A stretch of DNA of 35,581 bases from an uncultured Afifella sp. (GTDB lineage: Bacteria; Pseudomonadota; Alphaproteobacteria; Rhizobiales; Afifellaceae), in the NCBI GenBank assembly GCA_945787495.1, contig CALZIL010000013.1, positions 1 through 35,581 of the forward strand, written 5' to 3'. Shown here piece after piece: positions 3,925 to 33,270 of this stretch; positions within the stretch are counted from its first letter, which is position 1; each line of letters starts with the position of its first letter. Position numbers and translations under genes: made by a program. The notes beneath the pieces are model-generated. The model had not been told where the DNA came from, did no database searches, and saw only the letters and a program-made list of their open reading frames with translations.

Positions 3925-5066
3925 CGGGCGCCAGGCCGATCAATCTTGCCCTGCAAGGTGGCGGATCGCATGGCGCCTTCACCTGGGGCGTGCTCGACTG
4001 CCTGTTGGAGGACGGCCGGTTTGCGATCGAGGGCGTATCGGGCACCAGCGCCGGGGCGATGAACGCCGTTTGCCTGGCCGACGGCATGGTGACGAACGGG
4101 CCGGAGGGGGCGCGCGAAAAGCTGCACGACTTCTGGCGGGCGGTCGGCCGCAACTGGCGCTGGAACCCGGTGCAGCGCACGCCCTGGGACATGTTCATGG
4201 GCAACTGGTCGCTCGACCATTCGCCCGGTTTTCTGTTCTGGGACACCGTTTCGCGGTTCTTCTCGCCCTATGACGTCAATCCGCTCAACGCCAATCCGCT
4301 GCTTGAGACGATCCGCGCCGAAATCGACTTTGAACGCGTCCACCGCTGCGAGGAGATCAAGGTCTTCGTGTCGGCGACAAATGTGTGGAACGGCAAGGTC
4401 CGGGTGTTTGGGGAAAAAGACGTGACGGCGGAGGCGGTGATGGCGTCGGCCTGCCTGCCCGATCTGTTCCAGGCGGTGGAGATCGACGGCGTGCCCTATT
4501 GGGATGGCGGTTTCATGGGCAATCCGTCGCTGTTTCCGTTTTTTGAAAGGACCCACAGCGAAGACATCGTGCTGGTGCAAATCAATCCGGTGGAACGGGC
4601 CGAGACGCCGCGCACGGCGCGCGACATTCTCAACCGGATCGACGAAATCACCTTCAACGCCTCGCTGCTCAGGGAATTCCGCGCCATCGATTTCGTCTCG
4701 CGGCGGATCGATGAGGGCAAGCTGGAGCGCGGCCATTACAAGCAGATCCGCATGCACCGGATCGCCGCCGACGAGGCGCTCAAACCCTTGTCGGCGTCGT
4801 CGAAATCCAACACCGAATGGCAATTCTTGAAGCACCTGCGCGATATCGGCCGGGCGGCGGCGCTCGACTGGCTCGATCTGCACTCCGACAAGGTCGGCGT
4901 GGAACCGGGCATCGATCTCGCCGACGAGACCGCCTACCGGCTGGTCAGCCTGCGCGACCACCCGCCGACAACGCCGCGGGTGCGTGACATGCTGGCGAAG
5001 ATGCGCAGCGCCGTCGGCTGGAAGAGCCAGGAACGGCGTGACGACCAGCGGTCTCGTTTGCCGTGA
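3921..5066 (+). CDS. patatin-like phospholipase (DUF3734-type C-terminus)
   Basis: A 381-residue predicted lipid acyl hydrolase. The oxyanion loop G-G-G-S-H-G-A-F (13-20), the nucleophile motif G-T-S-A-G (Ser43 at its centre) and the catalytic-dyad D-G-G (Asp195) are all present. The C-terminal 150 residues match the DUF3734 extension that many proteobacterial patatins next to hydroxybutyrate dehydrogenase carry. There is no signal peptide or membrane segment, so it is probably cytoplasmic or peripheral. The start ATG at 3921 overlaps the MAPEG stop, showing translational coupling. A role in polyhydroxybutyrate-granule or membrane-lipid turnover is suggested by the operon; direct depolymerase activity is not shown. 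Confidence 0.9.
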   Translation: MTGARPINLALQGGGSHGAFTWGVLDCLLEDGRFAIEGVSGTSAGAMNAVCLADGMVTNGPEGAREKLHDFWRAVGRNWRWNPVQRTPWDMFMGNWSLDHSPGFLFWDTVSRFFSPYDVNPLNANPLLETIRAEIDFERVHRCEEIKVFVSATNVWNGKVRVFGEKDVTAEAVMASACLPDLFQAVEIDGVPYWDGGFMGNPSLFPFFERTHSEDIVLVQINPVERAETPRTARDILNRIDEITFNASLLREFRAIDFVSRRIDEGKLERGHYKQIRMHRIAADEALKPLSASSKSNTEWQFLKHLRDIGRAAALDWLDLHSDKVGVEPGIDLADETAYRLVSLRDHPPTTPRVRDMLAKMRSAVGWKSQERRDDQRSRLP

Positions 5067-5136
5067 AGCGGCCGGTCACTGAGTCGCTGATCTGTGCTAG
5101 GCTGTGCCGGCAGCCAATGCATCACGAGGTCCGGCC

Positions 5137-5688
5137 ATGGACCGGCTCGAAATCGGCGAGACCGAAATCGCGGTGATCGTCGCCGACATCACCACACGGG
5201 CCGTCGACGCCATCGTCAATGCCGCCAACGAGCGGCTTTTGGGTGGTGGCGGGGTCGATGGTGCGATCCATCGCGCCGCCGGGCCCGAGTTGCTTGCCGA
5301 ATGCCGTGCACTTGGCGGCTGCCCGACCGGCGAGGCGCGGATCACCAGGGGTTACGACCTGCCGGCGCGGCATGTCATCCATACGGTCGGGCCGGTCTGG
5401 CATGGCGGCACGGCCAGCGAGGCGGCGCTTCTGGCTTCAGCCTATCGTACATCGCTGGCGCTGGCGCGCGAGCATGGTGCAAAAACCATCGCCTTTCCGG
5501 CGATTTCCACCGGCGTCTATGGCTATCCGGCCGAGCAGGCGGCGGAAGTCGCGGTCGCGACCGTCGTCCAGACCGTCGAAGCCCATCCCGGTGCCTTCCA
5601 GCGGATCGAATTCTGCTGTTTTTCCGAAGCCTCGGCCGCCCATCACCGGCTGGCGCTGGCGGCGTTGAAATATCACGCCGAGAGCTGA
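5137..5688 (+). CDS. macrodomain protein, probable O-acetyl-ADP-ribose deacetylase
   Basis: A 183-residue single-domain macro protein of the YmdB/MacroD class, which hydrolyses O-acetyl-ADP-ribose or removes mono-ADP-ribose from proteins. Binding residues are visible: A-D-I-T (17-20), the D-A-I-V-N-A-A-N motif (24-31), the glycine-rich loop [14 protein letters not shown] (36-49), and I-S-T-G-V-Y-G-Y-P (123-131). The ATG at 5137 has GAGGT six bases upstream and is preferred to an in-frame upstream start. The gene is separated from the patatin gene by 70 bp. No ADP-ribosyltransferase partner such as DarT is nearby, so a toxin-antitoxin role is not supported. Confidence 0.9.
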
Positions 5689-5753
5689 CCGGCATTGCCG
5701 CCGGCCGCAGCGGCCAAGAATCCCCCGATATTTTGAACCATTCCCGCCACCGC

Positions 5754-5783
5754 GGCGTCGAACCTTATGAGAGTTCAGACGCC
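5754..5783 (+). promoter_or_regulatory. stem-loop just upstream of the small-peptide genes
   Basis: GGCGTCGAAC (5754-5763) pairs with GTTC-A-GACGCC (5773-5783) with a single bulged A and a 9-nt loop. The stem ends one base before the purine-rich GGGGATA that serves as ribosome-binding site for the peptide gene starting at 5794. The position fits a translational control or mRNA-stabilising element. No T-run follows, so it is not a terminator. Confidence 0.4.
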
Positions 5784-5793
5784 GGGGATAATC

Positions 5794-5946
5794 ATGGTTC
5801 GCAATCGCTTTTTCACCGCTTCGATCGCAGCAAGCATGCTTTTGCTGACCGCGACCGGTGCCCGCACCCGCCCGGTCTGGATGCCTTTTGACGCCCTGCA
5901 GGCGACGGCCCCCGCCACGGACGGCGCCGGGAGCCGGATCATCTGA
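5794..5946 (+). CDS. small exported peptide, 50 aa
   Basis: The frame from ATG 5794 encodes 50 residues. The first half is a signal-peptide-like stretch (basic M-V-R-N-R, then a hydrophobic core with A-S-M-L-L-L-T-A-T-G-A), followed by a short Pro/Ala-rich tail beginning R-T-R-P-V-W. A GGGGA ribosome-binding site lies seven bases upstream. The stop overlaps the start of the next small gene (TGATG), a layout typical of coupled translation. No family is recognised. Its product resembles the next one in plan: export signal, then a short tail with an R-P-V motif. It is real rather than random mainly because of the coupling and signal-like composition. Confidence 0.45.
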   Translation: MVRNRFFTASIAASMLLLTATGARTRPVWMPFDALQATAPATDGAGSRII

Positions 5947-6167
5947 TGTCCAAGGACGGAGATACCGCCATGAAAACGATCATCCTTGTCGTGTTCGCTT
6001 TGGCGTTTGCAGCACTGATCCTGGTGCTTTCATCCGCCGAGGCGGCGATGGTGCGGCCGGTTCCCGACCTGACCGCCATTACGCCGGTGCCGGCCGTCAC
6101 CATCGCAACCGAACGACCTGTCAAGAGGCGCGCAGCGCGCACCGGGGATACCGACACGGCCGACTGA
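5946..6167 (+). CDS. small exported or membrane-anchored peptide, up to 73 aa
   Basis: The frame from ATG 5946 (overlapping the previous stop) encodes 73 residues; a second ATG at 5970 would give 65 and a cleaner signal: M-K-T-I-I-L-V-V-F, a hydrophobic core, then S-S-A-E-A-A as possible cleavage site. The tail is V-R-P-V-P-D-L-T followed by a Thr/Pro/Val stretch and a basic segment K-R-R-A-A-R. No known domain is recognised. It may be secreted or stay anchored by the N-terminal helix. It ends in front of a strong bidirectional stem-loop, so the two small genes form a complete short transcription unit. Confidence 0.5.
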   Translation: MSKDGDTAMKTIILVVFALAFAALILVLSSAEAAMVRPVPDLTAITPVPAVTIATERPVKRRAARTGDTDTAD

Positions 6168-24932: not shown

Positions 24933-26882
24933 ATGAGCAGTCAGGAGGGGAAGGGGATACTGAACACAGCGATCGCCGGCCTTTCGGCAACTGCTGCCTT
25001 TGCCATCCCTTCGCTCTGTATTTTATGGAATCTTGACGTCCCGACCCGTCTCGGCGTGGCCTATCTCACCGAACAGTATCTGGCGCTGATCCTTGGCCTG
25101 GCGGTTGCGGTCCAGTTCCTGACCCCGAGCGCAAAAGAGCCGGGTTGGGCACGGGCGATAGACCGTGTTTTGGGGCTCTTGGGCCTCGGCACGCTTGCCT
25201 ATGTCGCGCTGACCTATGCCGCGCTTCTGAATGAGGTGGCTTATCGCCCGCCGGTTCTGACCTTTGTCGGGCTGGTCACGGTCGCTCTGGTGCTCGAAGG
25301 GGTGCGCCGCAAAGCCGGCTGGACGCTGTTTCTCATCGTCGCCATCTTCCTGGCCTACGCGCTCCTGGCGCATCTCGTCCCTGGTCCGCTGGTCGGCCGC
25401 AAAATGAGCCTCGTGCCATTGGTTCAGTATATCGGCTTCGACCCCAGTGCGGTTTATTCGACGCCGCTCAAGGTCGGTGCCATCGTCGTTGTGCTTTTCG
25501 TCTTTTTCGGAGGGCTGTTGTTCAAGGCGGGCGGCGGCGCCTTTTTCACCGATCTCGCGCTGGCCGCGACAGGACGCACACGCGGCGGGGCGGCCAAGAT
25601 TTCCGTCGTGGCCTCGGCGCTGTTTGGCTCGATATCCGGGAGCGCCGTCTCGAATGTCGCCAGCACGGGGGTCATTACGATCCCGCTGATGCGCCGTGGC
25701 GGCTATTCCAAAACCGATGCGGCGGCGGTCGAGGCCATTGCCTCCACTGGTGGCCAGTTGACCCCGCCGATCATGGGCGCAGCGGCCTTCCTCATGGCTG
25801 AGTTTCTCGAGATTCCCTATCTCGATGTTGTCGTGGCCGCCATCATTCCGGCCGCGCTCTACTATTTTTCCGTATATGTTCAGGTCGACCTCATCGCCGC
25901 GCGCGACCGCATCGCCTTCGTTGACGAGGATGTGCCAAAACTGGCCGACGTGCTGACGCGCGGGTGGCATTTCCTGCTGCCCTTCGCGCTCCTTCTCTAT
26001 GCCCTTTTCGGTATGAACTGGGACCCGGAGGATGCAGCTCTCCTCTCGGCCGCGGCCATTGTCGCCGTTGGTTTTGTCAGGTCCTATGGCGGTCAGAGGC
26101 TGACGCCGCGAGGGCTTGTCGACGTTTTTGTCGAGACCGGCCGGACAATGGTCGAATTGATCCTTGTGGTCGCCGCGGCCGGCTTTGTGATCGGAATTCT
26201 CAACATCACCGGCCTCGGCTTCGCGCTGACGCTGCTCCTGGTCGATACGGTCGGCGGCAATTTGGTCCTGATCCTGATGATTTCGGCCGTCGTCTGCATC
26301 GTTCTCGGCATGGGCATGCCAACGTCCGGGGTCTACGTCCTGCTCGCCGCCCTTGTCGCGCCGGCCCTGGTCGAAACCGGGATTGAGCCCTTGGCGGCCC
26401 ATCTTTTCATTCTCTATTTCGGCATGATGTCGATGATCACGCCGCCGATTGCACTGGCGGCGATTGCCGCCGCCGCCATTGCGCGGGCCGAGTCCATGGC
26501 AACCGGTTTTGCCTCGGTTCGTATCGGCTGGATGGCTTTTATCGTGCCGTTTCTTTTCGTCGGTTCGACGACGCTTATCCTGCGCGGCGATGCCACCGCC
26601 ATCGCTCTTGATGCGGCCAAGGCCCTGCTTGGGACTTTTGCCGTGTCCATCGCCATTGTCGGCTATTTTGTCGGGAGTCTGAAGCCGATCTACCGCGCCG
26701 CGTTCCTTGTGGCAGGCGCCGGCGTTTTGCCCTTTCGGCAGGGCTCCGAAATATGGGACAATTTCAACATCGCCTTCGGGGCCCTGGCAATCGGACTGCT
26801 CGCATATCGTATCATTGCGGCGCGGGTACGCCCGGCAATGGCTCCGGTTTCGAGCCGTCAAAACACATCAACAAGGAAATAG
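24933..26882 (+). CDS. TRAP-TAXI transporter fused DctQM-type permease
   Basis: A 649-residue polytopic membrane protein combining the small (4 helix) and large (12 helix) TRAP permease subunits, the form that works with TAXI binding proteins. The core motif K-I-S-V-V-A-S-A-L-F-G-S-I-S-G-S-A-V-S-N-V-A-S-T-G-V-I-T-I-P is present in the first half of the large domain, followed by E-A-I-A-S-T-G-G-Q-L-T-P-P-I-M-G-A-A-A-F-L-M-A-E and later L-G-M-G-M-P-T-S-G-V-Y-V-L and M-I-T-P-P-I-A-L-A. No frameshift is seen. It is 13 bp upstream of its binding-protein gene and heads the aromatic-acid catabolic cluster. Confidence 0.93.
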   Translation: MSSQEGKGILNTAIAGLSATAAFAIPSLCILWNLDVPTRLGVAYLTEQYLALILGLAVAVQFLTPSAKEPGWARAIDRVLGLLGLGTLAYVALTYAALLNEVAYRPPVLTFVGLVTVALVLEGVRRKAGWTLFLIVAIFLAYALLAHLVPGPLVGRKMSLVPLVQYIGFDPSAVYSTPLKVGAIVVVLFVFFGGLLFKAGGGAFFTDLALAATGRTRGGAAKISVVASALFGSISGSAVSNVASTGVITIPLMRRGGYSKTDAAAVEAIASTGGQLTPPIMGAAAFLMAEFLEIPYLDVVVAAIIPAALYYFSVYVQVDLIAARDRIAFVDEDVPKLADVLTRGWHFLLPFALLLYALFGMNWDPEDAALLSAAAIVAVGFVRSYGGQRLTPRGLVDVFVETGRTMVELILVVAAAGFVIGILNITGLGFALTLLLVDTVGGNLVLILMISAVVCIVLGMGMPTSGVYVLLAALVAPALVETGIEPLAAHLFILYFGMMSMITPPIALAAIAAAAIARAESMATGFASVRIGWMAFIVPFLFVGSTTLILRGDATAIALDAAKALLGTFAVSIAIVGYFVGSLKPIYRAAFLVAGAGVLPFRQGSEIWDNFNIAFGALAIGLLAYRIIAARVRPAMAPVSSRQNTSTRK

Positions 26883-26895
26883 GGAGAAAGTATCC

Positions 26896-27888
26896 ATGAA
26901 GCTCGGAAATCATTTGAAGACAGCCGGCCTGGCCGCAGGCATCGCGATCGGGTTGACCGGTTCGGCCTTTGCCCAGGTCGTCGGCATCGCCACCGGACAA
27001 CAGGGCAGCCTTGGCTACAACACCGGCCAGGCCGTCGCCAAGGTCGCGAACCAGGAAGCGGGCATCACCGCGCGAACCCAGCCCATGGCGGGCACCGCGG
27101 CCTATATCCCGCTCATCAACAATGGCGAGCTGGATTTCGGCTTCTGCAACGCCGTGGAGGCCGAATATGCCTTTACCGGCAGTGGCAATTTCGACGGCAA
27201 GGCCAATCCGGATCTGAGGATGGTCGGCGTCATGTTCCCGCTCACCACCGGCCTGATGGTCGCGGCCGATAGCGGCATCAAGACGATCGACGACGTTTAC
27301 GAGAAGCGTACGGAACTTCGGATTGCCTCCGAATACACCGCCTCGACGATCATCAAATATTACATCGCCGGAGCGCTCGCCAATGGCGGCATGACCTATG
27401 ACGATCTGAAAAACGTGCCGGTTTCGAGCTTCGTCAAAGGCATGGAGGCTCTCGGAGACGGCCTTGTCGATGTGACTCTGATCAGCCTCAATTCGGCGGC
27501 GGGCAAGAAAGTCAACGCCAAGCTCCAGTCGCGCGGCGGCATCCAGTATGTTTCACTTGATGACAGCCCAGAAGGGCAACAGAAGTTCCGCGACTTCCTG
27601 CCGGCGGCCAGCATCGTTTCGATGAAGGCCAACCCGAAGATTCCCGGCCTCAAAGAGCCGGCCAACATCATCAGAATCCCCTGGGTGATGGTGACCAACA
27701 AGGATACCTCTGAAGAGCTGGTCTACAAGATGACCAAGATGGTCGCCGAGCATAACAAGGCGCTGGGCGAGACCTTCGGCGCCTTCAAGCGGGCAAAGGT
27801 GGAAAAAATGGCGCCGGCCAACAAGGTGCCCTACCACCCCGGCGCGCTGAAATATTACAAGGAAGCCGGCATCGACGTCGGTCAGTAA
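26896..27888 (+). CDS. TAXI-family TRAP solute-binding protein
   Basis: A 330-residue periplasmic binding protein with a signal peptide ending G-S-A-F-A (residue 25). The TAXI signature begins the mature protein: V-V-G-I-A-T-G-Q-Q-G-S-L-G-Y-N-T-G, then G-T-A-A-Y-I-P-L-I-N-N-G-E-L-D-F-G-F-C-N-A. TAXI proteins bind glutamate, aromatic or other carboxylates; the gene's place directly ahead of ring-cleavage enzymes suggests an aromatic acid or its degradation product. A GGGAGAAAG ribosome-binding site precedes ATG 26896. A strong stem-loop follows the stop. Confidence 0.92.
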   Translation: MKLGNHLKTAGLAAGIAIGLTGSAFAQVVGIATGQQGSLGYNTGQAVAKVANQEAGITARTQPMAGTAAYIPLINNGELDFGFCNAVEAEYAFTGSGNFDGKANPDLRMVGVMFPLTTGLMVAADSGIKTIDDVYEKRTELRIASEYTASTIIKYYIAGALANGGMTYDDLKNVPVSSFVKGMEALGDGLVDVTLISLNSAAGKKVNAKLQSRGGIQYVSLDDSPEGQQKFRDFLPAASIVSMKANPKIPGLKEPANIIRIPWVMVTNKDTSEELVYKMTKMVAEHNKALGETFGAFKRAKVEKMAPANKVPYHPGALKYYKEAGIDVGQ

Positions 27889-27946: not shown

Positions 27947-29782
27947 ATGGTCACACAGGGCTATCTGCCTTTTCATCCCTCGCCCAAAAAACCGGACATC
28001 GACCTGCCGCCGCTTGCTTGTGACAGCCATTGCCACGTGTTCGGACCGGCGGTGAAATTCCCGTTTTCGCCAACCAGCAGCTACTTGCCGGTGGACGCGC
28101 CCAAGCAGACGCTGTTCGAGCGCCACCGTTTTTTGGGGTTTTCCCGCGCGGTGATCGTTCAGGCGAGCTGTCACGGCAGCGATAATGCGGCGATGGTCGA
28201 TGCGCTTGAAGCGGGCGGTGATGCCTATCGCGGAATTGCCATCCTGCGCGACGATGTCGATGAGGCGGAACTGCGCTGGCTCGACGCGGCTGGCGTGCGC
28301 GGCGTGCGATTTAATTTCGTCAAGCGCCTGAAGGCGCAGCGGCCAATATCGGTCTATGAGGAGATCATCGCCAGGGTGGCGCGCCTCGGCTGGCATATCG
28401 TGGTCTATTTCGATGCCGGGGACCTGGCCGAAATCGAGCCATTCCTGAAGACCATTCCGGTGCCCGTCATCATTGACCATATGGGCCGTGTGCCGGTGGC
28501 CGAGGGGACAAAAGGCGAGGCTTTTCGGCGTCTGGCGCGTCTGCTTGAGGACGACAAGTTCTGGATCAAGGTCTCCGGCGCCGAGCGGCTGACGAAAGCC
28601 GGTCCGCCTTATGGCGATGTCGACGAAGTCGCGCGCGGCCTTATCGCCGCCGCACCGACCCGCGTTCTGTGGGGCACCGACTGGCCGCACCCCAACATGA
28701 AATCCCATGTTCCCGACGACGCCATGGGCTGCTCGTCGACAATCCCGGCAGGCTCTATTGGGAAAATGATGGCCGCCATGGCTGATGACACGGCCGATCG
28801 TTCGCGCGGCAAGGGGCCGATTACCAAGGTCGCGGTGCCTGCCGTTTCCTTCGGTCAGCATCCCGGGCTGGTGCAGCGCATCGGCAAGATCTACCCGGAC
28901 GCCAAGATCAACGCCGAGGGTCTGAAGGTCTATCAGTCCGAAGACGAAACGATTGCCTATCTGCAAGGCTACGAGGCTGCGATTTGCTCGTTCGAACTGA
29001 TAAATGACCGCGTCCTTGAAGCGCTGCCGCAATTGCGCGTCGTCGCCAAGCTGGGCGTTGGCCTGGACAAGATCGACCCCCACGCCATGCGCCGTCATGG
29101 CGTTCGGCTTGGCTGGACGCCGGGAGTGAACAAGCGCGCGGTGGCCGAACTTGCCCTGTGCACCGCGCTCATGGCCCTGCGTCATGTCTCGACCTGCAAT
29201 CTCGACATGCGGGCCGGCAAACGGCCGCTGCAGCGCATTGGCCGGCAGCTTTCGTGCCGCGTCGTCGGCATTCACGGTTGCGGGCAAATCGGCAAGGAAT
29301 TTGTCCGTCTGCTGCAACCCTTCGGCTGCGAGATCCTTGCCAACGACATCAAGGATTATCGCGACTTCTATGCCGAGCACGCCGTGACGCCGGTGTCTTT
29401 CGACGCGCTTTTGGAGCGCTCGGAAGTTCTTTCCATCCACCTGCCGGTGACCAGGCTGACGCAAGACCTCTATTCCGGCGAGGTGCTTGACCGGTTGCGC
29501 CAGGACTGCGTGCTCATCAACACAGCGCGCGGCCGTATCATCGACGAGGCGGCATTGAAAGAGCGCCTCAAATCGGGCCGTATCGCGGCTGCCGCCATCG
29601 ATGCCTTTGCGCTTGAACCGCCCGAGGATGACGAACTCTTGCGCCTGCCCAACTTCATCGCCACGCCGCATATAGGCGCTGGCAGCGTCGAGGCCCGCTG
29701 GGCCATGGGCATCACCGCCATCGCCGGCATCAAGGACAATTTCATTCCCGAACCGGGTGTCGCCCCGTTTGAGGACCGTTAG
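27947..29782 (+). CDS. fused frame: LigI-like amidohydrolase joined to 2-hydroxyacid dehydrogenase
   Basis: One open frame of 611 residues. Residues 1-259 are an amidohydrolase-2 protein like 2-pyrone-4,6-dicarboxylate hydrolase (LigI), which opens the pyrone ring to 4-oxalomesaconate: metal/active-site D-S-H-C-H (His28, His30), I-D-H-M-G-R, K-V-S-G-A-E-R and G-T-D-W-P-H-P-N (Asp245). The expected end (about 20 residues and then L-L-V-D-N-P-A-R-L-Y) is missing in this frame, but L-L-V-D-N-P-G-R-L-Y-W and a stop are found in another frame at 28729-28785. A net loss of 3n+1 bases before that point therefore shifted the frame and joined the enzyme to the downstream dehydrogenase through an 18-residue nonsense linker (260-277). 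The hydrolase is probably impaired; an assembly error is possible. Confidence 0.85.
   Translation: MVTQGYLPFHPSPKKPDIDLPPLACDSHCHVFGPAVKFPFSPTSSYLPVDAPKQTLFERHRFLGFSRAVIVQASCHGSDNAAMVDALEAGGDAYRGIAILRDDVDEAELRWLDAAGVRGVRFNFVKRLKAQRPISVYEEIIARVARLGWHIVVYFDAGDLAEIEPFLKTIPVPVIIDHMGRVPVAEGTKGEAFRRLARLLEDDKFWIKVSGAERLTKAGPPYGDVDEVARGLIAAAPTRVLWGTDWPHPNMKSHVPDDAMGCSSTIPAGSIGKMMAAMADDTADRSRGKGPITKVAVPAVSFGQHPGLVQRIGKIYPDAKINAEGLKVYQSEDETIAYLQGYEAAICSFELINDRVLEALPQLRVVAKLGVGLDKIDPHAMRRHGVRLGWTPGVNKRAVAELALCTALMALRHVSTCNLDMRAGKRPLQRIGRQLSCRVVGIHGCGQIGKEFVRLLQPFGCEILANDIKDYRDFYAEHAVTPVSFDALLERSEVLSIHLPVTRLTQDLYSGEVLDRLRQDCVLINTARGRIIDEAALKERLKSGRIAAAAIDAFALEPPEDDELLRLPNFIATPHIGAGSVEARWAMGITAIAGIKDNFIPEPGVAPFEDR
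28729..28785 (+). other. orphaned C-terminal coding remnant of the LigI-like gene
   Basis: Read in the frame starting at 28729, these bases encode L-L-V-D-N-P-G-R-L-Y-W-E-N-D-G-R-H-G then TGA (28783-28785). L-L-V-D-N-P-x-R-L-Y is the near-universal ending of amidohydrolase-2/PDC-hydrolase proteins. The remnant's stop overlaps the ATG of the dehydrogenase (28778) by 8 bp (ATGGCTGA), showing the ancestral gene boundary. Confidence 0.8.
28778..29782 (+). CDS. D-2-hydroxyacid dehydrogenase, ancestral separate gene
   Basis: The same frame from ATG 28778 gives a complete 334-residue D-isomer-specific 2-hydroxyacid dehydrogenase. The NAD-binding loop is H-G-C-G-Q-I-G (166-172) with Asp190 at the end of the second strand, indicating NAD rather than NADP. 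Catalytic Arg251 (N-T-A-R-G-R-I-I-D), Glu280 (A-L-E-P-P) and His298 (T-P-H-I-G) are intact. It resembles phosphoglycerate-dehydrogenase-like proteins. In this cluster it might oxidise or reduce a hydroxy-acid intermediate, perhaps replacing the LigC step. It may still be translated from its own start even though it is also fused to the upstream frame. Confidence 0.75.
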   Translation: MADDTADRSRGKGPITKVAVPAVSFGQHPGLVQRIGKIYPDAKINAEGLKVYQSEDETIAYLQGYEAAICSFELINDRVLEALPQLRVVAKLGVGLDKIDPHAMRRHGVRLGWTPGVNKRAVAELALCTALMALRHVSTCNLDMRAGKRPLQRIGRQLSCRVVGIHGCGQIGKEFVRLLQPFGCEILANDIKDYRDFYAEHAVTPVSFDALLERSEVLSIHLPVTRLTQDLYSGEVLDRLRQDCVLINTARGRIIDEAALKERLKSGRIAAAAIDAFALEPPEDDELLRLPNFIATPHIGAGSVEARWAMGITAIAGIKDNFIPEPGVAPFEDR

Positions 29783-29792
29783 GGAGAACCCT

Positions 29793-30746
29793 GTGAGCGA
29801 ACCCTGTACCGACACTGCCCATCTTGGCCATGTCGAGCTTCTGACCAACAAGCCCGAGGAAAGTCTTGATTTCTTCGTCAATATCATTGGCCTCACCGAA
29901 AGCGGCCGGGAGGGCGGTTCGGTCTATCTGCGCGCCTGGGACGACTATGAGTTCGCCACGCTGAAGCTGACGGCCTCGGACACCACCGGCACCCGCCACG
30001 TGGGGTATCGTGCCGCCAGCCCGCAAGCCTTGCAGCGTCGTGTCGCCGCCATTGAAGCGCTCGGCGCCGGTATCGGCTGGACCGATGGCGATATGAGCCA
30101 CGGGCCGGCCTATCAGTTTCATGATCCCGATGGCCATCTCTTCGAGATCTACTACGAGACCAACACATATGTCGCTCCGCAGAGCGAGCGCCCGGCGCTC
30201 AAAAACCAGGCCCAGCGCAACCATTCGCGCGGCTGCGCCGTGCGCCGCCTCGACCATGTGAACCTGCTGGCCAGGGACGTGAGCCTGATCCGCGACTTCC
30301 TGCCCAAGGCCATCGGCAGCCGGGTTACCGAGCAGATCGTCCTCGACAACGGTACGGTCGGCGGCTGTTGGTTCACGATCAACAACAAGAGCTACGATAT
30401 CGTCTATACGGCCGATTTCACCGGTTCGTCGGGCCGCTTCCACCATGTGACCTACGCTGTCGACCAACGCGAACAGGTTCTCCAGGCCGCCGATATTTTC
30501 CTCGAAAACGGCGTCTTCATCGAAACCGGGCCGCACAAGCACGCCATTCAACAGACCTTCTTCCTCTATGTGTGGGAGCCGGCCGGCAACCGTGTCGAGA
30601 TTGCCAATGCCGGGGCGCGACTGATCCTTGCGCCCGACTGGGAGCCGGTCACCTGGACGGAAACGGAGCGCAAAAAAGGCCAGGCCTGGGGCCTCAAGAC
30701 GGTCGAGTCCTTTCATACCCATGGCACGCCGCCGGCCAAATCCTGA
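29793..30746 (+). CDS. VOC-family extradiol dioxygenase (catechol 2,3-dioxygenase-like)
   Basis: A 317-residue two-domain vicinal-oxygen-chelate protein. The Fe(II) ligands of type I extradiol dioxygenases are all present in the second domain: His155 (L-D-H-V-N-L-L), His218 (F-H-H-V-T-Y-A-V-D) and Glu269 (N-R-V-E-I-A-N). The first domain has the matching H-V-E-L and D-P-D-G-H-L-F-E-I-Y signatures. It should cleave a catechol-type ring next to the hydroxyl pair. It starts at GTG 29793 with AGGGAG upstream and lies 10 bp after the dehydrogenase. Protocatechuate and gallate cleavage in this type of pathway is normally done by the unrelated LigAB family, so the true substrate is uncertain. Confidence 0.88.
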   Translation: MSEPCTDTAHLGHVELLTNKPEESLDFFVNIIGLTESGREGGSVYLRAWDDYEFATLKLTASDTTGTRHVGYRAASPQALQRRVAAIEALGAGIGWTDGDMSHGPAYQFHDPDGHLFEIYYETNTYVAPQSERPALKNQAQRNHSRGCAVRRLDHVNLLARDVSLIRDFLPKAIGSRVTEQIVLDNGTVGGCWFTINNKSYDIVYTADFTGSSGRFHHVTYAVDQREQVLQAADIFLENGVFIETGPHKHAIQQTFFLYVWEPAGNRVEIANAGARLILAPDWEPVTWTETERKKGQAWGLKTVESFHTHGTPPAKS

Positions 30747-30778
30747 TCAGGCAACAAATGTGATGAGGAGCATTGAAG

Positions 30779-31513
30779 ATGAGCGATAACAACACCGCCC
30801 TGGTTGTCAGCGCCCACGCCGCCGACTTCGTCTGGCGCGCCGCGGGCGCCATCGCGCTGCATGCCAAACAGGGCTATGAGGTGACCGTGGTCTGCCTGTC
30901 CTTCGGTGAGCGCGGCGAATCCGCCAAGCTGTGGAAAGATCCTGGCATGACGCTGGAGAGTGTCAAAGAGGCGCGCAAGGCCGAAGCGGAGGCCGCGGCC
31001 AGGGCGCTCGGCGTCGCCCATCTCGAACTGTTCGATCTTGGCGACTACCCGCTGCCCCTCGACCGCGCCGCGACCGACCGGCTGGTCGAGGTCATGCGCC
31101 GCGTCGCCCCCCGCTTCATTCTGACCCATTCCAGGGACGACCCCTATAATACCGATCACCCGGCAACGACGGCCTTCACCATCAATGCCCGCATGATCGC
31201 CCAGGCCTGGGGCCACAACCCAGGCGAAACCGTGCTCGGCGCGCCGCAAGTCTATCTCTTCGAGCCGCACCAGAGCGAGGTGTGCGGCTGGAAACCCGAT
31301 ACCATTCTCGATATCACCGATGTCTGGGAGCAGAAGAAGGCGGCCATCGAATGCATGGCCGGCCAGGAGCATCTCTGGCACTATTACACCAATGTCGCCG
31401 AGAACCGCGGCAATCAGTTCCGCCGCAATTCCGGCGGCCATGCCGGCGGCCGCCCGGCGCGCTACGGCGAAGCCTTTCAGTCGATCTTCCCTCGAACCGT
31501 GGATGAGCTGTGA
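30779..31513 (+). CDS. galB: 4-oxalomesaconate hydratase, PIG-L/LmbE family
   Basis: A 244-residue metalloprotein of the PIG-L fold. Instead of the deacetylase motif A-H-P-D-D it has [17 protein letters not shown] (from residue 11), closely matching Pseudomonas putida GalB as I remember it, including [15 protein letters not shown]-x-x-D-P-Y-N-x-D-H-P and C-M-A-G-Q-E-H-L-W. GalB hydrates 4-oxalomesaconate (enol form) to 4-carboxy-4-hydroxy-2-oxoadipate. ATG 30779 has AGGAG nine bases upstream; a TTG six bases earlier is less likely. The stop overlaps the galC start. Confidence 0.9.
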
Positions 31514-32184
31514 TGAATGTCGTCTTTCGCAAGATCCCTCGCGCCGAGCCCGATACCATCGATGGTCTCGCAAAATGCGGCGCCGCCACGGTGCACGAAG
31601 CACAGGGGCGCAAGGGGCTCCTTACCTCAAAAATGCGCCCCGTCTATCGGGGCGCGCGGATCGCCGGTTCGGCCGTGACCGTGTCGCTGGCTGCGGCTGA
31701 TAACTGGATGATCCATGTCGCGGTGGAGCAATGTCAGGCGGGCGATGTCCTGGTCGTTGCCCCGACCTCGCCTTCGGACGCAGGCTATTTCGGCGATCTC
31801 CTGGCCACCTCGCTCAAGGCGCGCGGCGTGCGCGGTCTGGTCATCGATGCCGGCGTGCGCGATGTGAAAGACCTCACCGAAATGGGCTTTCCGACCTGGT
31901 CGACGGCCATTTCGGCGCAAGGCACGGTCAAGGAAACACTGGGCTCGGTGAACGTCCCCATCGTTTGCGCCGGCGCACATATCGAGCCAGGCGACGTGAT
32001 CGTCGCCGACGATGATGGCGTCTGTGTCGTTCGCTGCGATGAGGCCGATGAGGTTCTGCAAAAGTCCCGCGCCCGCGAGGCGAAGGAAGAAGAGACGCGA
32101 AAGCGCCTCGCTGCCGGCGAACTGGGGATCGACATCTATGGCATGCGCGACAAACTGGAAGCCAAGGGGCTGAAATATATCTGA
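31513..32184 (+). CDS. galC: 4-carboxy-4-hydroxy-2-oxoadipate aldolase / oxaloacetate decarboxylase (RraA family)
   Basis: A 223-residue class II aldolase of the RraA-like fold (GalC, LigK, ProA). It splits 4-carboxy-4-hydroxy-2-oxoadipate into pyruvate and oxaloacetate. The metal/substrate signature is present: F-G-D-L-L-A (93-98), V-I-D-A-G-V-R-D (110-117; Arg116, Asp117) and the late [11 protein letters not shown] loop. The ATG at 31513 overlaps the galB stop (TGATG); a GTG one codon earlier is also possible. True RraA ribonuclease inhibitors are shorter and lack the C-terminal extension. Confidence 0.92.
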
Positions 32185-32202: not shown

Positions 32203-33270
32203 ATGACCCAAGGCATTGCCTGCACCTGGATGCGCGGCGGCACGTCCAAGGGTGCGTATTTCCTCAAGGACAACCTGCCCGCCAACGAGGCAGACCGTGA
32301 TCGGTTGCTGCTCTCCATCATGGGCTCGCCCGATCCGCGCCAGATCGATGGCATTGGCGGTGCCGACCCGCTGACCAGCAAGGTGGCGGTGGTGTCGAAG
32401 TCGGACCGCCCCGATGCCACCGTGGACTACCTTTTCCTGCAGATCTTCGTCGACCAGGCCATCGTCACCGACAAACAGAACTGCGGCAATATCCTTGCCG
32501 GGGTGGCGCCCTTTGCCGTCGAGAAAGGTCTTGTGGACCCGACGGGTGACCGGTCCGAAATCGCCATCTACATGGTCAATTCCGATCAGGTGGCGAAGGT
32601 GACGATCGATACACCCGGCAAAACGGCGACCTATCGGGGAAATGCCGGCATCGACGGCGTACCGGGCACCGCCGCACCGGTTCTTGAGGATTTTCCCGAC
32701 GCTGCGGGCTCGACTTGCGGGGCTCTTTTGCCGACGGGCAATATTGTCGACGTCATTGACGGCGTGGAAGTGACTTTGATCGACAATGGCATGCCGGTCG
32801 TCGTTCTGCGTGCAGCCGATCTGGGCATCACGGGCACTGAAACCCGCGAGGCACTTGACGCCAATGAGGCATTGAAGGCGAAACTTGAGCCGATCCGTCT
32901 CAAGGCGGGGGTCCTCATGGGACTTGCTGACGTATCGGAGAAGTCCGTGCCAAAGATGACTCTGGTCGCCCGCCCGCGCGCCGGCGGAGCCATTGCCACC
33001 CGCACCTTCATCCCCCACAGATGTCATGCATCGATTGGCGTGCTGGGCGCCGTCAGCGTTGCCACGGCCTCGATGCTGAAAGGCTCGCCGGCCTGTGAAT
33101 TGGCCGAATTGCCCGAAGGCCGCGAGAAGACCATCTCAGTTGAGCATCCGATTGGCGAGACGAGCGTGGTGATGGAGGTCGACTGGGCGGAAGGGCGGCC
33201 GGACGTAAAAAGGGCGGCTGTTCTCAGAACCGCGAGAAAGCTGTTCGAGGGTTTGGTCTATCCGGCGTAG
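32203..33270 (+). CDS. galD: 4-oxalomesaconate tautomerase (PrpF family)
   Basis: A 355-residue protein of the PrpF isomerase family, diaminopimelate-epimerase-like fold. The N-terminal C-T-W-M-R-G-G-T-S-K-G-A-Y-F (about 7-20) is the GalD/PrpF signature, as is C-G-N-I in the middle (D-K-Q-N-C-G-N-I) and H-R-C-H-A-S-I-G-V-L-G near the end. GalD interconverts keto and enol 4-oxalomesaconate so that GalB can hydrate it. It is the last gene of the cluster, 18 bp after galC, and is convergent with the dienelactone hydrolase gene. A weak stem (GGCGT 33272-33276 / ACGCC 33291-33295) lies in the 33-bp gap. Confidence 0.92.
   Translation: MTQGIACTWMRGGTSKGAYFLKDNLPANEADRDRLLLSIMGSPDPRQIDGIGGADPLTSKVAVVSKSDRPDATVDYLFLQIFVDQAIVTDKQNCGNILAGVAPFAVEKGLVDPTGDRSEIAIYMVNSDQVAKVTIDTPGKTATYRGNAGIDGVPGTAAPVLEDFPDAAGSTCGALLPTGNIVDVIDGVEVTLIDNGMPVVVLRAADLGITGTETREALDANEALKAKLEPIRLKAGVLMGLADVSEKSVPKMTLVARPRAGGAIATRTFIPHRCHASIGVLGAVSVATASMLKGSPACELAELPEGREKTISVEHPIGETSVVMEVDWAEGRPDVKRAAVLRTARKLFEGLVYPA

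Follow-up and report, generated by a model that had tools for sequence, protein, structure and literature searches.

The window, which is the whole 35,581-nt stretch of DNA analyzed from an uncultured Afifella sp., contains one uninterrupted open reading frame (ORF) of 611 aa that joins parts of two enzyme families (Table 1). Pfam assigns residues 25-258 to Amidohydro_2 (E about 3e-45 to 6.5e-45) and residues 330-595 to 2-Hacid_dh/2-Hacid_dh_C, the two D-2-hydroxyacid dehydrogenase domains. The Amidohydro_2 match stops at profile position 259 of 289, 30 positions before the profile end. The hydrolase part, of a type that serves in aromatic-compound degradation, is 45-67% identical to intact homologues and aligns to LigI (PDB 4d8l) over residues 7-259 (E 2.6e-76). 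A preliminary description of this DNA had read the single frame as a hydrolase and a dehydrogenase meeting at a scarred junction, a reading borne out by the Pfam domains, the spacing in homologues, and a gap in the DNA alignment. In all likelihood the fused ORF is a gene that broke recently and now reads on into its neighbor, not a two-domain enzyme.

Table 1. Features of the fused frame and the surrounding gene cluster (positions within the window).
Feature	Coordinates	Strand	Evidence
TRAP fused permease	24933..26882	+	TIGR02123
TAXI-family TRAP solute-binding protein	26869..27888	+	TIGR02122
Fused ORF, 611 aa	27947..29782	+	Open frame and Pfam domains
LigI-like PDC hydrolase, 258 codons left up to PDD, catalytic residues intact	27947..28720	+	Amidohydro_2; 4d8l LigI; homologues
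Probable deletion junction, 8 nt (28721-28728) vs 57 nt in homologues	28720..28729	+	Homologue spacing; DNA alignment
Orphaned hydrolase C-terminus LLVDNPGRLYWENDGRHG and old TGA, other frame	28729..28785	+	Translation; ending profile; codon usage
D-2-hydroxyacid dehydrogenase, probable original start ATG 28778	28778..29782	+	2-Hacid_dh_C E 8e-46; homologues 46-54% identical
Catechol 2,3-dioxygenase-like extradiol dioxygenase	29793..30746	+	TIGR03211 315.9 bits, below cut-off 320.2
GalB-like 4-oxalomesaconate hydratase (PIG-L fold)	30773..31513	+	5cgz E 1.3e-92
LigK/GalC-type 4-carboxy-4-hydroxy-2-oxoadipate aldolase	31510..32184	+	NF006731, TIGR02798 above cut-off
GalD-type 4-oxalomesaconate tautomerase	32203..33270	+	NF033377 522 bits, cut-off 440

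The fused ORF is flanked by the TRAP permease and TAXI protein genes on one side and by the dioxygenase and GalB-, GalC-, and GalD-type genes on the other. Many genomes have the GalB/GalC/GalD set next to a homologous hydrolase gene. LigI is known to convert 2-pyrone-4,6-dicarboxylate (PDC) to OMA, from which GalD, GalB, and GalC then yield pyruvate and oxaloacetate (PMC12314914). PDC would therefore enter the pathway at the step of the broken gene, whose loss would block this conversion, while the rest of the operon encodes GalD-, GalB-, and GalC-type enzymes. A distant hydrolase paralogue (35% identity) is present on another contig, C38. The catechol 2,3-dioxygenase-like gene stands within this PDC-type lower-pathway cluster. 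In the draft genome of Vibrio mexicanus, a second gene of the PDC pathway is frameshifted: the GalD-like 4-oxalomesaconate tautomerase gene (positions 4892-5952 of locus L104) lies in two pieces in different frames, the first with a stop at codon 88.

The dehydrogenase half and its relatives

The catalytic and NAD-binding domains of the dehydrogenase are both there, with PF00389 and PF02826 above cut-off, and the protein matches 1wwk (E 1.3e-42). Its scores fall far under the cut-off of every named equivalog. Homologues at 46-54% identity start at about residue 16-24. The ATG at 28778 is a sensible original start because no later in-frame start precedes the conserved part; alternative in-frame ATGs lie at 28766 and 28769.

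The subfamily is uncommon; a few genomes have relatives of the protein at 46-54% identity. A LigI-like gene of this branch adjoining these relatives was not seen in the genomes examined. The nearest four (51-54%; L130, L131, L132, and L118) are found downstream of genes for TRAP/TAXI transporters or next to a binding protein of a tripartite tricarboxylate transporter, and none has a close LigI-like gene directly adjacent, suggesting that the subfamily has an independent role. In the plasmid pairs whose context was read, hydrolase and dehydrogenase are separate genes, the dehydrogenase lying upstream in R. mucosa, Caballeronia, and Roseibium. One 674-aa open frame (L159) was considered as a fused homologue and rejected: it contains no hydrolase, its dehydrogenase homology begins about 320 residues in, and by eye the part before this homology, which overlaps another ORF, resembles a spurious alternate frame.

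The junction and the orphaned hydrolase ending

A scan of genome contigs across 84,980 species yielded 80 homologous loci, and whole-genome searches added more relatives, for 113 hydrolase homologues in all. One strict pattern could score 91 of them, and in 91/91 PD[DE] is followed by G, with exactly 19 residues before LLVDNP (20 before LVDNP). The remaining 22 have variant motifs, yet each has its own NP..LY-type or similar C-terminus. As shown by these homologues, the ancestral layout is PDD-G-(18 aa)-LLVDNPxRLYW-stop. A fused or overlong hydrolase occurs in 0 of the 113, none of which extends beyond 305 aa, and the fusion is also absent from the plasmid and genome matches whose gene context was read.

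Compared with this layout, the net loss at the junction is 49 nt (3x16 + 1), seen as one unbroken gap with ordinary flanks in a DNA alignment with seven homologues. The preliminary description had correctly predicted a net loss of 3n+1 bases; its size of 58-64 bases was too large. No damage was found in the hydrolase part apart from this loss. The 8-mer CGCCATGG at 28720-28727 recurs 54 nt downstream (28774-28781), at the dehydrogenase start. Templated filler and chance are both possible sources of this recurrence; since about 1% of ORF 8-mers have a copy within 100 nt, templated filler as the source of the 8 leftover bases is a lead only.

The ending that the hydrolase lacks is encoded in another frame. 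From 28729 this frame translates to LLVDNPGRLYWENDGRHG*, which contains the family ending LLVDNPGRLYW and stops at the TGA at 28783-28785. A position-specific profile of the family ending was made from 36 distinct homologue endings. Its score at 28729 is 37.8 bits, against 4.7 bits at the next best position in the six frames of the window, where 28729 is the sole match. Every conserved residue of the orphaned tail is still present. Its 18 old-frame codons have a log-odds score of 0.300 per codon, close to the in-frame window mean of 0.304 and reached by 0.05% of shifted windows, a comparison that serves as support only, as stop codons partly penalize shifted windows. From the dehydrogenase ATG at 28778 through the end of the old TGA, the overlap is 8 nt. 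Both the surviving ending with its TGA and the 8-bp overlap had been noted beforehand, and the translation, profile score, and coordinates agree with them. The hydrolase and dehydrogenase were thus probably once overlapping neighbors. No orthologous operon with the pair was found in the same genus or the same family, so this ancestral overlap is inferred from the sequence of the locus. A close copy was looked for in viral contigs and plasmids and not found.

Codon use in the orphaned tail still resembles that of coding DNA, and all its conserved residues remain, so the lesion looks recent. Judging from this tail, the event is recent compared with the split from every homologue sampled, all of them from other genera (closest, 67% identical). 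If the tail is neutral, we estimate that roughly fewer than 0.13 substitutions per site would have accumulated since the event (95%; ~23 non-synonymous sites, about 30 nt).

Consequences for the hydrolase and alternative readings

The retained hydrolase has the features of a LigI-type enzyme up to the junction, namely an Amidohydrolase-2 barrel with HxH, conserved Arg and His residues, and a C-terminal catalytic Asp. Its C-terminus (PDDG-18 aa-LLVDNPxRLYW in the family) is incomplete, the last two helices being absent. H28 and H30 (HxH), R121, R127, H178, and R214 are intact, and we take their catalytic roles to be those of LigI. D245, also intact, is the counterpart of D248, the Asp altered in LigI mutants 4di8 and 4dia. 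An AlphaFold2 model of an intact homologue, L034 (mean pLDDT 92.7), shares the LigI fold (4di8, TM 0.94) and places helices at 259-269 and 273-288 after PDD, both with pLDDT about 95. On this model, the deletion takes out helix 259-269 and the first part of helix 273-288, the remainder of which is out of frame. Among the lost residues, six are invariant in 25 homologues (G260, L262, L280, N283, P284, and L287). The first 300 aa of the fusion are modeled with a pLDDT of 75.6, falling below 50 at residues 249-300; the first strands are also less confident, and the alignment was trimmed at the junction, so the comparison with L034 is not clean. The lower pLDDT is thus suggestive rather than conclusive. 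In all likelihood the hydrolase half is misfolded or has no activity.

These observations are probably best explained by a single recent, lineage-specific net 49-bp deletion that inactivated a LigI-like PDC hydrolase gene. Such a deletion would strip the coding sequence of the penultimate helix and of the beginning of the last helix and, as 49 is 3x16 + 1, would send the ribosome into the frame in which the overlapping dehydrogenase gene downstream is read. Because 49 is not a multiple of three and the sequence has no stop in the dehydrogenase frame ahead of the dehydrogenase start, the two ORFs would merge into one. The hydrolase half would then be inactive or misfolded, blocking the conversion of PDC to OMA. 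The dehydrogenase half is complete and its start region untouched; its product may still be made from its own ATG or within the fusion.

An assembly or consensus error would mean that the 49 bases were lost in assembly and that the genome carries an intact hydrolase and a separate, overlapping dehydrogenase. The assembly is fragmented (432 contigs, 95% complete, 1.8% contamination), the other operon genes are undamaged, and the fused form is known from a single genome, all of which agree with an error. However, a 49-nt loss is atypical of short-read graph assembly or base-calling faults at a junction whose repeats are short, local, and at most 8 nt, and with such repeats the assembler has no obvious reason to lose 49 bases. 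A codon-usage HMM flagged no frame switch (same strand, no nearby stop) among 359 coding segments in 435 kb (21 stretches) of the same assembly, 400 kb of the genome having been sampled for this census; its sensitivity is moderate, the strict rule having caught 30 of 80 simulated single-base deletions. Given zero flags at this sensitivity, the assembly is not riddled with indels. An assembly fault is therefore rather unlikely, and we favor with reasonable confidence a true deletion that is real and lineage-specific.

A tolerated or selected bifunctional hydrolase-dehydrogenase, with both halves working, would suit a frame that is open throughout, the retention of all seven residues from H28 to D245 named above, and the location of both genes within one cluster. 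Against it stand the loss of the terminal helices with their six invariant residues, the poorly modeled junction region (pLDDT <50), and the absence of the fusion from every homologue; the undecayed old tail gives no sign of an old selected fusion. This reading is very unlikely, and it is slightly less probable still that the 611-aa fusion is an expressed and functional, incipient bifunctional enzyme whose barrel can do without its last two helices. Of the three options in the preliminary description, a real inactivating mutation fits best, and both assembly error and a tolerated fusion lose ground. An old conserved fusion that happens to resemble a scar has next to no likelihood and is already contradicted by the sequences, since all 91 scored homologues retain a separate ending, the family ending survives here out of frame at 37.8 bits, and fused homologues without it, named beforehand as the mark of such a fusion, were looked for and not found.

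Comparison with known systems

The inactivating deletion, if real, makes this locus a well-resolved case of a small out-of-frame deletion beside an overlapping gene producing an ORF that automated annotation would name a new two-domain enzyme. If a complete PDC/gallate lower pathway is predicted for the source organism from its genome, the prediction may fail at the hydrolase step.

Like LigI (PDB 4d8l, 4di8, and 4dia), the hydrolase has the HxH, the Asp that was mutated in LigI (D248), and the conserved Arg and His residues; unlike LigI, it is without its C-terminal helices through the deletion and runs on into a dehydrogenase. The dehydrogenase shares both domains with the D-2-hydroxyacid dehydrogenase/phosphoglycerate dehydrogenase-like family (PF00389, PF02826). 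Unlike that family, it is reached by read-through from a hydrolase and is assigned to no named equivalog.

In translationally coupled or frame-transition gene pairs, adjacent genes in different frames have an overlapping stop and start (PMC3711429). The neighbors described here share this overlap, whereas an upstream frameshift bypasses the termination and re-start site. In deletion-born fusion genes, the loss of DNA brings the beginning of one ORF up against the end of a different one, and a new ORF results (preprint, PMC12803068). The present locus likewise has a new ORF made by a deletion joining two pre-existing ORFs, with the ancestral state found in relatives, although these relatives all belong to other genera and the ancestral adjacency of hydrolase and dehydrogenase is not seen elsewhere. 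The cases quoted there are 2-57 kb deletions between distant genes, whereas here 49 bp are lost inside one gene, with a shift into its overlapping neighbor. Fusions arising from deletions and frame transitions between neighbors are thus already described (PMC12803068; PMC3711429), and the present case is a probable pseudogene and annotation trap rather than a new enzyme or system.
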